Shown here: positions 1 through 59,846 of the stretch, piece by piece
Layout: the number at the start of each line of letters is the position of its first letter
How positions within the stretch are numbered: position 1 is the first letter of the stretch
Source: Gammaproteobacteria bacterium
GTDB taxonomy: Bacteria; Pseudomonadota; Gammaproteobacteria; SURF-13
DNA: 64,000 nt
Assembly (NCBI GenBank): GCA_030680605.1
Contig: JAUXUQ010000022.1
Coordinates: forward strand, 1-64,000
Reading direction: 5' to 3'
The notes under the pieces: generated by a model
Seen by the model: only the letters and a program-made list of their open reading frames with translations
Databases searched by the model: none
Told to the model about the DNA's origin: nothing
Translations under genes and position numbers: made by a program

Positions 1-119
1 CCAGCTGCCCTCATCCCAGCCTTCTCCTGGAGGGAGTAAGGAGCCATCGGGGGGGGGGGGGGGGGGGGGGCGAGTGCTGCTTACTCCCTCCAGGAGAAGG
101 CTGGGATGAGGGCAGCTGG
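1..119. repeat. Perfect 40-bp inverted repeat flanking a 22-G tract (REP/BIME-like)
   Basis: Bases 1-40 are the exact reverse complement of bases 80-119. The 39-base loop holds an uninterrupted run of 22 G (49-70). Each arm contains a smaller imperfect palindrome of the CCTTCTCC...GGAGGGAG kind that resembles widespread proteobacterial REP elements, so I read this as two REP-like units in opposite orientation. It ends 18 bases before the start of the VOC gene. The family assignment is by resemblance only. Confidence 0.7.
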
Positions 120-54960: not shown

Positions 54961-56301
54961 TCAGTTATTTCTTGGGCGTGACCAATTACAGAATCTATGG
55001 GTAAGACGCGCATTCTCCGGCACCGTTTTACCACCGCGCCAATACTGTTCTATGTGGTCAAGGGCAGCATCATCTACCAACTGAATTTGTTGACCACATA
55101 TTTCACATGTTGGATTTAAATCAAATATTTCTCGCTTCAGGCTATAACTAAAACAGCGCGGTTCTCGATGCTGAATCCCGATTACTTGCTGGAGCGCACT
55201 GCGCCATTTATCGAATCTTTTGGTGATTGCCTGAATCGAACTTGTGGACAACTCGATTGAGTCTATGAACTCTTGGTCGGACGTCATTAAATAGATTAAC
55301 GCCTCGCGAACAGCGTCAAGATTTTGGAATACCCGATTCTTATCCTCCTTTGCAAAGGAATACATCAAAATATCGTACAGCGACGCATTAAACACCTTCG
55401 GTTCCCAATGACCGTTTGGGTCAGTTTCCGTGCCTTTGTAGTAGCGTTTAAATGCGTTGGCTCCGAGAACAGACTTGACGAGATGAACTGAATTTCTAAA
55501 CGCTGCTTCCAGTTCTGCTGAATCAGAATCAGAAATAAACTGATGTTTTTCCATTTCCCTATTTAAGAAGCTACGCATAGGGGGCTTATAGTTCAAGTAT
55601 GTCTGGTGAAAGAACGCAGAAAATCTCAAAACCAGTTCCACATCTTTCATCCGCTTGTCTGGCGCAGAGATACCCATAAGTGCGGTGAACTCAGAACTTG
55701 TTGCCAGTTTCTTTAGCAGATGGTTGTACGGGCCTCTGTAGATACAGTTGCGAAGCTCCTGATCATTTAATGAAACTGAACCTGTATTGAGTCTTTCGAA
55801 TATTTCAAATTTCAAATTAGGATCGGATTCCTTACGGAAGGTAATTGTGCGGATTTTGCAATAACGAACTTTGTCCTGATCTGCCTCGGGCAGCTCTGCA
55901 AAATGCTTCCGATTGTACTCCGCAAAAACTTTTAGCCCAGAAAGGCGGAAATCCGCACCATCTGGAAACTTTCCGTCTACGAACGAAAAGAATGATGTAA
56001 GTCGTTGCTGCCCATCAATTACGTATTCGTTTCCATCATTCTCTTGTGAGATGTAGACCACAGGGAGCGGGATATCCAACAGAGCAGATTCGATAAGCCG
56101 GCTAGATTTTTTGGGATCCCATACAAACTGGCGCTGAAAATCTGGCTGGATTACGAGTTTGCCTCGTTTCCACTTGTTGTAAAGTGACTCTATTTCGGGA
56201 TCACCTTGATCTGTAAATATCTTGTTCCGCCCAGCTTGAACATCAGCTTCTTCGACCTCTTCTTCAAGAGGTGTTTCGAATTGCAGTTCATCTTCTTCCA
56301 T
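54961..56301 (-). CDS. DUF262 and HNH nuclease protein (GmrSD/SspE-like)
   Basis: A 446-residue protein. The DUF262 domain (about 30-250) has PDFQRQFVWD and the ParB/Srx-like VIDGQQRLTSFF (DGQQR about 96-100). The C-terminal HNH endonuclease has CEIC, DHIEQYW and HRFCNW zinc and catalytic elements. This architecture is found in type IV-like restriction (GmrSD) and SspE phage-defence proteins. AAGGAG precedes the ATG. The gene lies within cassette borders at attC-3 and attC-4. Confidence 0.88.
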   Translation of the reverse strand: MEEDELQFETPLEEEVEEADVQAGRNKIFTDQGDPEIESLYNKWKRGKLVIQPDFQRQFVWDPKKSSRLIESALLDIPLPVVYISQENDGNEYVIDGQQRLTSFFSFVDGKFPDGADFRLSGLKVFAEYNRKHFAELPEADQDKVRYCKIRTITFRKESDPNLKFEIFERLNTGSVSLNDQELRNCIYRGPYNHLLKKLATSSEFTALMGISAPDKRMKDVELVLRFSAFFHQTYLNYKPPMRSFLNREMEKHQFISDSDSAELEAAFRNSVHLVKSVLGANAFKRYYKGTETDPNGHWEPKVFNASLYDILMYSFAKEDKNRVFQNLDAVREALIYLMTSDQEFIDSIELSTSSIQAITKRFDKWRSALQQVIGIQHREPRCFSYSLKREIFDLNPTCEICGQQIQLVDDAALDHIEQYWRGGKTVPENARLTHRFCNWSRPRNN

Positions 56302-57074: not shown

Positions 57075-57161
57075 GCCTAACGTAGAGGTGACCGGCGCTG
57101 CGCCGCTTTTTGGCGCAGCGTCCAGCGACCAAAGGGAGCGAGGTTGAGCGCCATGTTATGC
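57075..57161 (-). other. Integron attC site (attC-2)
   Basis: GCCTAAC (57075-57081) and GTTATGC (57155-57161), with a nine-base perfect stem CGCTGCGCC/GGCGCAGCG inside. The stop codon of the CoiA-like gene lies in the R'' box. Confidence 0.85.
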
Positions 57162-57758
57162 ATAACCACTTTCCAGCGCGCGCACATGTTTGAGATGGCC
57201 CCACCCGCCGCAGGGTGTGTTTTTGGACATGCGACGAACATTAAGCACCTTGCCACCACCAAGATCAAGCCGAGCAGGTGCTGTTGTGTAAGCCACGGAT
57301 TTGCGAGGATGTTTCCACCGGAACGAATAATAGTCACCGCGTGGACGAAGATTAAAGCGATCTTTTTTGTAAGGGTCGCGGGCGTCAAATACCCATATCA
57401 TATTTCTATAAAAACGCTCTCTAGTCTCTATTTCATCAACGGAAATTCCAGAGCACTGCAATTCAATAACGGTGCCACCAGGGAGCACAGCATCTGCTCT
57501 GTGGTTTTCACCATCTTTAGACATGAATACTTCAAGGGAAGCGCCAAGTGTTTTTAGGTAATGCTGCCACCGAATATGCCAAGCAGACGGGCTTTCTGCC
57601 CACGGATCGCAATCAACACCTGAAAGGTGACGCCAATGCCACATAACAATTTGCCCGCAACAAGCGACCAACTCCCCACCGCAACCGGGACAGATTGTCC
57701 GTTGACCGGAGAACTCCGGCTCAATAGTGGCCCCCTGTTCAGTGGTGAAGCAGATCAT
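57156..57758 (-). CDS. CoiA-like nuclease domain protein
   Basis: A 200-residue protein of the competence CoiA-like family. N-terminal zinc-ribbon elements CPGC (C23, C26) and HWRH (41-44), then a PD-(D/E)xK type nuclease core HRADAV (D89) and VIELQCSG (E99, Q101). Cassette members of this family are nuclease-like and may act in defence or DNA uptake. It lies between attC-1 and attC-2. Confidence 0.8.
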   Translation of the reverse strand: MICFTTEQGATIEPEFSGQRTICPGCGGELVACCGQIVMWHWRHLSGVDCDPWAESPSAWHIRWQHYLKTLGASLEVFMSKDGENHRADAVLPGGTVIELQCSGISVDEIETRERFYRNMIWVFDARDPYKKDRFNLRPRGDYYSFRWKHPRKSVAYTTAPARLDLGGGKVLNVRRMSKNTPCGGWGHLKHVRALESGYA

Positions 57759-57889: not shown

Positions 57890-57960
57890 GCATAACGCAG
57901 AGTTCAGCGGGACTCCGGCAGCATTATCGCCGGAGGCTCCGCTGGAACGCCGGGTTGGGC
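57890..57960 (-). other. Integron attC site (attC-1)
   Basis: GCATAAC (57890-57896) and GTTGGGC (57954-57960). Inner arms CTCCGGC and GCCGGAG pair, and AGCGG/CCGCT pair, with one extra base on the right arm. It is the attC of the first cassette after attI. Confidence 0.85.
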
Positions 57961-57983: not shown

Positions 57984-58181
57984 ATGCAAACAGCGAAAGA
58001 GCGAGAAGAAGCGTTTCGCCGCGACTTAGCGGAACTGCTGGCAAAGCACAAGGCCGAACTGAACATCGCGGACGACGGCAAGAGCTACGGAATGCACAGC
58101 GGAATCGCCGAGGTAACGATGATGAGCGAATGGGACGAGGCAGGGAATCAGACCGCCGACTACACGGAATTTCGGATATGA
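57984..58181 (+). CDS. Inverted first-cassette gene of unknown function
   Basis: A 65-residue, charged protein (MQTAKEREEAFRRDLAELL, then helical and acidic sequence, ending DYTEFRI). AGGAGGG lies seven bases before the ATG, so translation is likely. It runs opposite to the other cassette genes and cannot be expressed from the usual cassette promoter. No family is recognised. Confidence 0.65.
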   Translation: MQTAKEREEAFRRDLAELLAKHKAELNIADDGKSYGMHSGIAEVTMMSEWDEAGNQTADYTEFRI

Positions 58182-58182
58182 G

Positions 58183-58328
58183 GCCCAACGTAAAGTAGAC
58201 ACCAATAAAGTACTAAATAGTTTAGCACACTGGTGTACTAAACTATTTTTAATGAGATATTGCTTTATAATCAAAGTTGGCATAAATTTATCACACCATT
58301 TCCCGGTTTTTAGTACACCGTCCTAAAA
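58183..58328. other. Integron attI region
   Basis: The recombination box GTTGGGC (minus strand; + GCCCAAC 58183-58189) marks the first cassette border. Between it and intI, a motif recurs four times: GTACTAAA (58210-58217), TTTAGCACAC (58221-58230), GGTGTACTAAA (58232-58242) and TTTAGTACACC (58309-58319), giving an 11-base hairpin (58215-58225 with 58238-58248). These may be integrase-binding repeats like DR1 and DR2 of attI1. Confidence 0.7.
58246..58274 (-). promoter_or_regulatory. Possible cassette promoter Pc
   Basis: Minus strand TTGATT (58269-58274), 17-base spacer, TAAAAA (58246-58251). Both boxes match four of six consensus positions. It points into the cassette array. On the other strand TATAAT (58266-58271) could be the intI -10, but no good -35 accompanies it. 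Confidence 0.4.
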
Positions 58329-59309
58329 ATGCCCAACGAATCTCAGAAATCCCCGAAGCTTATGGAGCAGGTGCGCGACTGTTTGCGGGTTAAGCATTAC
58401 AGCCTGCGTACCGAGCGTGCTTACATGGACTGGATTAAACGCTTTATTTTGTTTCATGACAAGCGTCATCCGGAGAAAATGGCGGTGGCCGAGGTGGAGG
58501 CGTTTCTTTCGCATCTCGCGGTGGCGCGCGAGGTGTCGGCTTCGACCCAGAACCAGGCGAAAAGCGCTTTGCTGTTCCTGTATAAAGAGGTGCTGGGTAT
58601 TGAGCTGCCTTGGCTGGAAAATGTGACGCGCGCCAAGACGCCACAACGTTTGCCGGTGGTGCTGACAGAGGACGAAGTGCGGCGCGTGCTGGGTAAGATG
58701 GAGGGCACGCTTTGGTTGATGGTCAGCTTGCTGTATGGCACGGGTATGCGGCTGATGGAGTGCGTGCGATTGCGCGTGAAGGATGTGGATTTTCAACGCG
58801 GCGAAATTACAGTGCGCGAGGGCAAGGGCTTCAAGGATAGAGTGACGATGCTGCCGCAGATTTTGTTTGAACCATTGAAGCATCACCTGGACCGGGTGCG
58901 CGAGGTGCATAAGAACGACTTGGCACAGGGTTATGGCAAGGTCTATCTACCCAATGCACTGGCGAAAAAATATCCGAATGCGGCAGCTGAGTGGGGATGG
59001 CAATATGTGTTTCCGGCGCGTGGACTTTCTACCGACCCGCGCTCCGGCGAGGTGAGGCGGCATCATGTGGACGAGAAGCTGATTCAGCGTGCAATGAAGC
59101 GGGCGGTGCAAGAGACGGATATCGTTAAGCCGGCGACGCCGCACACCCTGCGCCATTCCTTTGCCACGCATTTGCTGCAGGCCGGTTACGACATCCGTAC
59201 GGTGCAGGAGCTGCTTGGCCACAAGGATGTGCAGACGACGATGATTTATACTCATGTATTAAACCGCGGCGGGAAGGGTGTGCAGAGCCCGCTGGATCAG
59301 TTGCTTTAA
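58329..59309 (+). CDS. intI: Integron integrase
   Basis: A 326-residue tyrosine recombinase. Catalytic residues R141, H272, R275, H298 and Y307 are intact. The integron-specific patch lies at about 210-229 ([19 protein letters not shown]), which ordinary phage or XerC/D enzymes lack. The gene diverges from the cassettes and follows attI, the standard order. A short hairpin TTTTTAG/CTAAAAA (58307-58313, 58323-58329) reaches the start codon. No LexA box is seen. Confidence 0.96.
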
Positions 59310-59380: not shown

Positions 59381-59593
59381 ATGTTAGCCCTGAGATTATC
59401 CCCCGAGATTGAGCAGCGTTTGGAAAAGCTGGCGCAGAAAACTGGCCGCACCAAGAGCTATTATGCCAAAAAGGCGATCACCGAGTTTTTGCAGGACGAG
59501 GAAGATTACCTGCTCGCCTTGACGCGCCTGGAAAAGAGTAATCCCCGCATTTCCCTGGAAGAGGTCGAGCGCCAACTTGGTTTGGAAAGTTGA
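59381..59593 (+). CDS. RelB-like ribbon-helix-helix antitoxin
   Basis: A 70-residue protein. N-terminal RHH fold: LALRLSPEIEQRLEKLAQ and GRTKSYYAKKAITEFL; C-terminal tail DEEDYLLALTRLEKSNPR binds the toxin. Starts after GGAGGA. It overlaps the toxin gene by 17 bases and is preceded by a palindromic operator. Confidence 0.9.
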   Translation: MLALRLSPEIEQRLEKLAQKTGRTKSYYAKKAITEFLQDEEDYLLALTRLEKSNPRISLEEVERQLGLES

Positions 59594-59846
59594 GTTTGAC
59601 AGCGCCGCGCTGAAAGACTTAAAGCGCCTGGATCAAACTGCTCAGCGGCGTATTGTCCACTATCTGCGCGAACGCATCGCCATAGAAGAAAATCCGCGCC
59701 GCTTGGGCAAGGCTCTGCACGGAGATAAATCAGGGCTCTGGCGTTACCGCGTAGGTGACTATCGCTTGCTTTGCCGTATTGAAGACAACATATTAATGGT
59801 TCTCGTCATAGCTGTTGGACATCGTAGCGGCGTTTACAAAAACTAG
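59577..59846 (+). CDS. RelE/ParE superfamily toxin
   Basis: An 89-residue toxin starting at TTG inside the antitoxin gene. Pattern: [16 protein letters not shown] at the start, [28 protein letters not shown] with the RelE-type Arg and Tyr, and [13 protein letters not shown] at the end, typical of mRNA-cleaving RelE toxins. The pair may stabilise the integron. Confidence 0.92.

Follow-up and report, generated by a model that had tools for sequence, protein, structure and literature searches.

The 146-bp region between the cassette junction and intI of a chromosomal integron contains repeated TTTAG(T/C)ACACC elements and a 34-bp palindrome. The explanation that we consider reasonably probable, judging from sequence comparison, is that the repeats are accessory half-sites for the integrase IntI which resemble L boxes, that attI is here extended to about 130 bp, and that the array probably also acts as an autoregulatory block on intI. 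The integron is located at the end of the window (the whole stretch of DNA analysed, 64,000 nucleotides), and its cassette array extends leftwards from intI. A GTTRRRY-type R box is present at the cassette junction beside intI, together with a functional-looking intI and an attC-bearing cassette alongside, as in the attI of a chromosomal integron.

Layout of the region upstream of intI

The features are as follows, where distances of sites (offsets) are counted from position 58186 as offset 0.

57890..57960, minus strand: attC of the first cassette, 71 nt, GCCCAAC...GTTATGC, fold of -34.2 kcal/mol
57984..58181, plus strand: ORF of the first cassette, 65 aa, reverse of the usual cassette orientation, from ORF reading
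58189-58183, minus strand: R box GTTGGGC of the attI core, read G^TTGGGC, crossover 58189/58188
58194-58203, plus strand: core L-box region AGTAGACACC; the attI core as a whole is 58183..58203
58210..58217, minus strand: partial copy GTACTAAA, exact match, forming a small hairpin with TTTAG (GTACTAAATAGTTTAGCAC), of which it is the left arm
58215..58248, no strand: near-perfect palindrome, 34 bp, formed by sites 1 and 2 in head-to-head arrangement, 16-bp arms with 15/16 paired, 2-nt spacer
58220..58231, plus strand: site 1, GTTTAGCACACT, offset 34, held-out motif score 8.6
58232..58243, minus strand: site 2 (B), GTTTAGTACACC, offset 46, held-out motif score 14.6
58266..58271, plus strand: candidate -10 of the intI promoter, TATAAT, from sequence inspection
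58286..58297, plus strand: site 3, ATTTATCACACC, offset 100, family-wide distal element, held-out score 13.4, near-fixed offset in relatives
58308..58319, plus strand: site 4, TTTTAGTACACC, offset 122, second distal copy, held-out score 15.4, within a small inverted repeat (58307-58329)
58329..59309, plus strand: intI, integron integrase, 326 aa, TIGR02249 at 504 bits, catalytic motifs intact

A family search with the 65-aa ORF of the first cassette (57984-58181) gave zero matches. Among the neighbouring genes, the cassette gene at 57156-57758 resembles the CoiA nuclease and that at 54961-56301 (minus strand) resembles a GmrSD-N/HNH protein, both with a possible defence function, and a toxin-antitoxin pair of the RelB/RelE-ParE type is encoded immediately 3' of intI, between intI and mnmG (59381-59846).

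The initial annotation described four copies of one motif, two in each orientation, and this holds with one of the copies being imperfect. Exact copies of GTACTAAA are found at 58210 and 58235 (+) and an exact copy of TTTAGTAC at 58309, with no further exact copy of either in the 64-kb window; TTTAGCAC at 58221 has one mismatch, as does a fifth copy at 58320. The hairpin it reported as having 11 bases is present and is larger than stated, corresponding to the 34-bp palindrome, and the second small hairpin reaching the start codon of intI was correctly described, since the inverted repeat 58307-58316 / 58320-58329 extends to the ATG. In order to assess these repeats against chance, we used shuffled sequences. 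The palindrome score was matched by none of 1000 dinucleotide shuffles of the segment, and it was equalled at just one other position of the window (56350). The top 8-mer repeat family has 6 members compared to a shuffle mean of 3.5, and 6/200 shuffles reach 6. Repetition by itself is modestly above chance; it is the comparison with relatives that places the repeats clearly above it. The attI of the window itself had no exact match in IMG/VR.

Conservation and spacing among relatives

The comparison set consisted of 80 IntI relatives, three family members and three further attI copies. All usable loci share the core YAACGTAAAGTAGACACC at the junction, and it is kept beside intI in over 70 of the related attI regions. 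De novo motif finding was done on the part of attI beyond 68 bp, corresponding to the intI-proximal ends, and gave the motif TTTTAgtACACCCTA, mostly located 100-104 bp from the crossover in the 80 attI regions, where intI starts at 100-176 bp. Lack of conservation in related attI regions had been named in the initial annotation as grounds for dropping the idea, and the motif is conserved there in both position and consensus. In Gallionella-type loci the first codons of intI contain the distal element, and elsewhere it falls in the untranslated leader. It is therefore neither a coding feature nor a ribosome-binding one.

We then scored the window with a model trained on other sequence clusters, the window's own cluster being excluded. 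This held-out model gives four strong sites in the window and no more (15.4, 14.6, 13.4 and 8.6), with the best non-site at 4.2. The minus-strand site recurs in relatives in the same orientation at an offset of about 44-48, and the second distal copy is also present at 121-125 in L001-L003, L117 and L121. Two loci of genome G266 were fetched later and lie outside the training: L128 has a minus site at 48 and plus sites at 104 and 127, and L125, which has intI, carries strong proximal sites including a minus site at 48. These two loci, and likewise L117 and L121 in G173, represent two attI-like copies per genome on different contigs; intI was not seen in the stretch read downstream of the L117 copy.

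Sites outside 99-105 are found at about 86-94, 111-113, 123-125, 135-136 and 166, in helical phase with 103. The helical-phase test on disjoint clusters, devised post hoc after the positions were seen, gave p of about 0.00005-0.011 across clustering and score settings. Near-constant spacing could partly come from shared descent with few indels. The distal element was not clear in the scan of about five divergent lineages (e.g. L031, L061, L062 and L076). Copies of a lineage's own L box, taken as ungapped 12-mers, are individually weak (mean 7.6 vs 7.4) and informative by position only, and BLAST matches in L116 and L119 were judged to be chance. Two loci differ in their structure. In L118 (G280) the proximal hairpin module is duplicated in tandem and the distal element is at 166 vs about 103, displaced by 63 bp, equal to six turns of the helix. 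In L082 (G001), from a sister species of the same genus, intI is reduced to a 3' remnant with an in-frame stop, which suggests that the integrase was lost recently in this genus.

A second layer of features is more variable. Several lineages have a lineage-specific inverted repeat (GACG...CGTC, GCC...GGC) with its centre some 32.5 bp from the crossover, namely the window (58185-58230), L038, L043, L069, L097, L001 and L013. It is kept as a repeat and not as a sequence, with complementarity higher than in permuted partners (z 3.8); at the position equivalent to 58210-58217 relatives have an inverted repeat of differing sequence, and in the window the 32.5-bp position is occupied by GTACTAAATAGTTTAGCAC, which makes up the palindrome's left part. 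As a universal hairpin this feature was rejected, being significant by shuffling in just 11/77 loci, and we keep it as a secondary lead from the permuted-partner result. Between the proximal and distal sites, many relatives also have an IHF-like sequence (52% within one mismatch vs 17% in shuffles), often at offsets 72 (minus) and 84-86 (plus), e.g. in L004, L058, L065 and L071. The host genome has three HU/IHF-family genes. The corresponding sequence of the window itself is degenerate, and the claim of an IHF site there was dropped.

Candidate binders and other readings

In order to distinguish the integrase from a host regulator as the protein recognising the sites, we examined their distribution in the host genome (1.87 Mb, 99% complete). 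TTTAKYACACC occurs 4 times, 3 of them in the attI region, and GTGTACTAAA is present in the attI region only. A global regulator was rejected on this confinement of the motif to attI. Similarity of attI and of the distal element tracks IntI identity, with no further effect of host group, although some co-variation with IntI is expected because intI, attI and the elements are contiguous. When class 1 attI1 was scanned with the model, the top match was its known L box TTTTAGGGCGACTGC at 9.4 bits (shuffle 95% 7.9, 99% 10.4), a match with a significance of only about 2-5%. The sequence flanking the core L box on its outer side is closer to the distal element of its own lineage than to those of others (p 0.001, uncorrected, 20 comparisons). 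Rarity in the genome, similarity linked to IntI, likeness to the L box and the absence of lexA described below point to the integrase itself as the probable binder.

The initial annotation left the choice between an operator and a site for the integrase or a regulator. The integrase site is favoured; an operator of a separate regulator is disfavoured because the distribution is not regulon-like, lexA is missing, and the sites keep their distance from the crossover and not from the start of intI. In such an arrangement the palindrome and repeats would serve a LexA-like or other host repressor of intI and of the cassette promoter, as the dyad symmetry across the promoter region and the frequent repression of intI promoters by LexA (PMC3108266) would allow. 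We consider this unlikely. Two models (PF01726 and TIGR00498) found no lexA in the host, and the LexA box CTGT-N8-ACAG was found neither in the window segment nor in the scan of the upstream regions of L001-L080, so that a LexA operator was rejected. The similarity that follows the integrase and not the host group, the position that follows the crossover and the 3 of 4 genomic copies in the attI region argue against other regulators as well.

A somewhat less probable reading is that the inverted repeats act as RNA, either as hairpins in the leader of the cassette mRNA (minus strand) or as an attenuator between opposing transcripts. The variable inverted repeat at 32.5 bp, with its excess complementarity, is in line with this, and the palindrome of the window is terminator-like on the minus strand. 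An intrinsic terminator has a stem rich in G+C and then a run of T, whereas the single minus-strand match of the terminator scan has G-C at 3/15 pairs and the tail AGTACTTTAT, with a shuffle average of 0.6 matches. A and T dominate the stem, which has 3 G-C pairs, and folding of the 153-nt segment as DNA is ordinary (z -1.1), so the whole-region DNA fold was rejected as a special feature. The RNA reading also leaves the helical phasing unexplained, and the same motif is also found at 100 and 122, where its direct copies are unpaired. The least probable of these readings is that the region has no special function, being an A+T-rich promoter region of the ordinary kind whose repeats arose by chance or by local duplication. 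The A+T-richness of attI regions and the 8-mer repetition reached by some of the shuffles would fit it, but the recovery of the same four sites by the held-out model, the near-fixed spacing across lineages and the rarity of the motif genome-wide speak against it.

If the sites are bound by IntI, the array would have one pair of sites, placed head to head, at 34-57 bp from the core and direct copies farther out, at 100 and 122 bp, in helical phase. IntI on sites 1-2 and 3-4 could then assemble on one side of the helix as a complex of several protomers, phased to the core, and this complex may help present the double-stranded attI core to a folded attC. Sites 1-2 lie over the likely -35 and sites 3-4 just 3' of the -10; because the sites cover the -35 region and adjoin the -10 downstream, occupancy by IntI should repress intI, which would give feedback control in a host without LexA. 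This autorepression step is speculative, the intI promoter being weak: the -35 position, which falls inside the palindrome's right arm, is a poor match, and a full promoter was not found in the consensus scan upstream of intI. The link between cassette transcription and integration suggested in the initial annotation is plausible from the position of the sites only.

Comparison with known systems

Accessory integrase repeats are reported to be absent from most attI sites and were maybe selected once integrons became mobile (PMC8191803), and soil and freshwater integrons that are not under LexA control must restrain their integrase by additional unidentified means (PMC3108266). Conserved, phased integrase-like sites over the intI promoter bear on both the origin of accessory repeats and LexA-independent control of the integrase. 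From the relatives compared here, accessory sites appear to be widespread in sedentary chromosomal integrons. We raise more tentatively a large beta- and gammaproteobacterial lineage of such integrons with a long attI, in which an IHF-like bend would bring phased integrase sites about 100 bp (in some 122 bp) off to the core, the resulting intasome-like complex also autoregulating intI in hosts without SOS control. If the long-attI reading is true, accessory integrase sites would predate the mobilisation of integrons. Our literature search found no description of such an array, most subscription papers being outside its reach.

The lambda-type attP combines arm sites with an IHF bend. The array is like it in layout only, with distal sites phased to the core and, in many relatives, an IHF-like sequence in between; unlike it, a separate arm-binding domain was not seen in the families matched by IntI, and the IHF-like sequence of the window is degenerate. 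The attIA of Vibrio cholerae also belongs to a sedentary chromosomal integron, but it is reported to lack such repeats and works without them (PMC8946536), and its promoters use LexA and CRP (PMC8946536, PMC8876359). A parallel in kind is class 1 attI1, which is 65 bp long with two direct repeats and has the L box CCCTAAA bound by IntI1 (PMC12901181); its extra IntI1-binding repeats favour attI x attC recombination (PMC8946536, PMC8191803). As with DR1 and DR2 of attI1, extra integrase-type sites are located between the core and intI. The initial description of the arrangement as unlike class 1 attI is right for the layout and not for the element, which resembles the class 1 L box. DR1 and DR2 are a pair of direct repeats that lie no more than 65 bp from the crossover, whereas here there are at least four sites, at 34 (+), 46 (-), 100 (+) and 122 (+), one pair being head to head, and they reach 133 bp from the core and overlap the intI leader. 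Since this layout is not a DR pair of the attI1 type, and sequence, orientation and distances differ, the array is best read as a putative functional analogue of attI1 DR1/DR2 and not as a member of that class.
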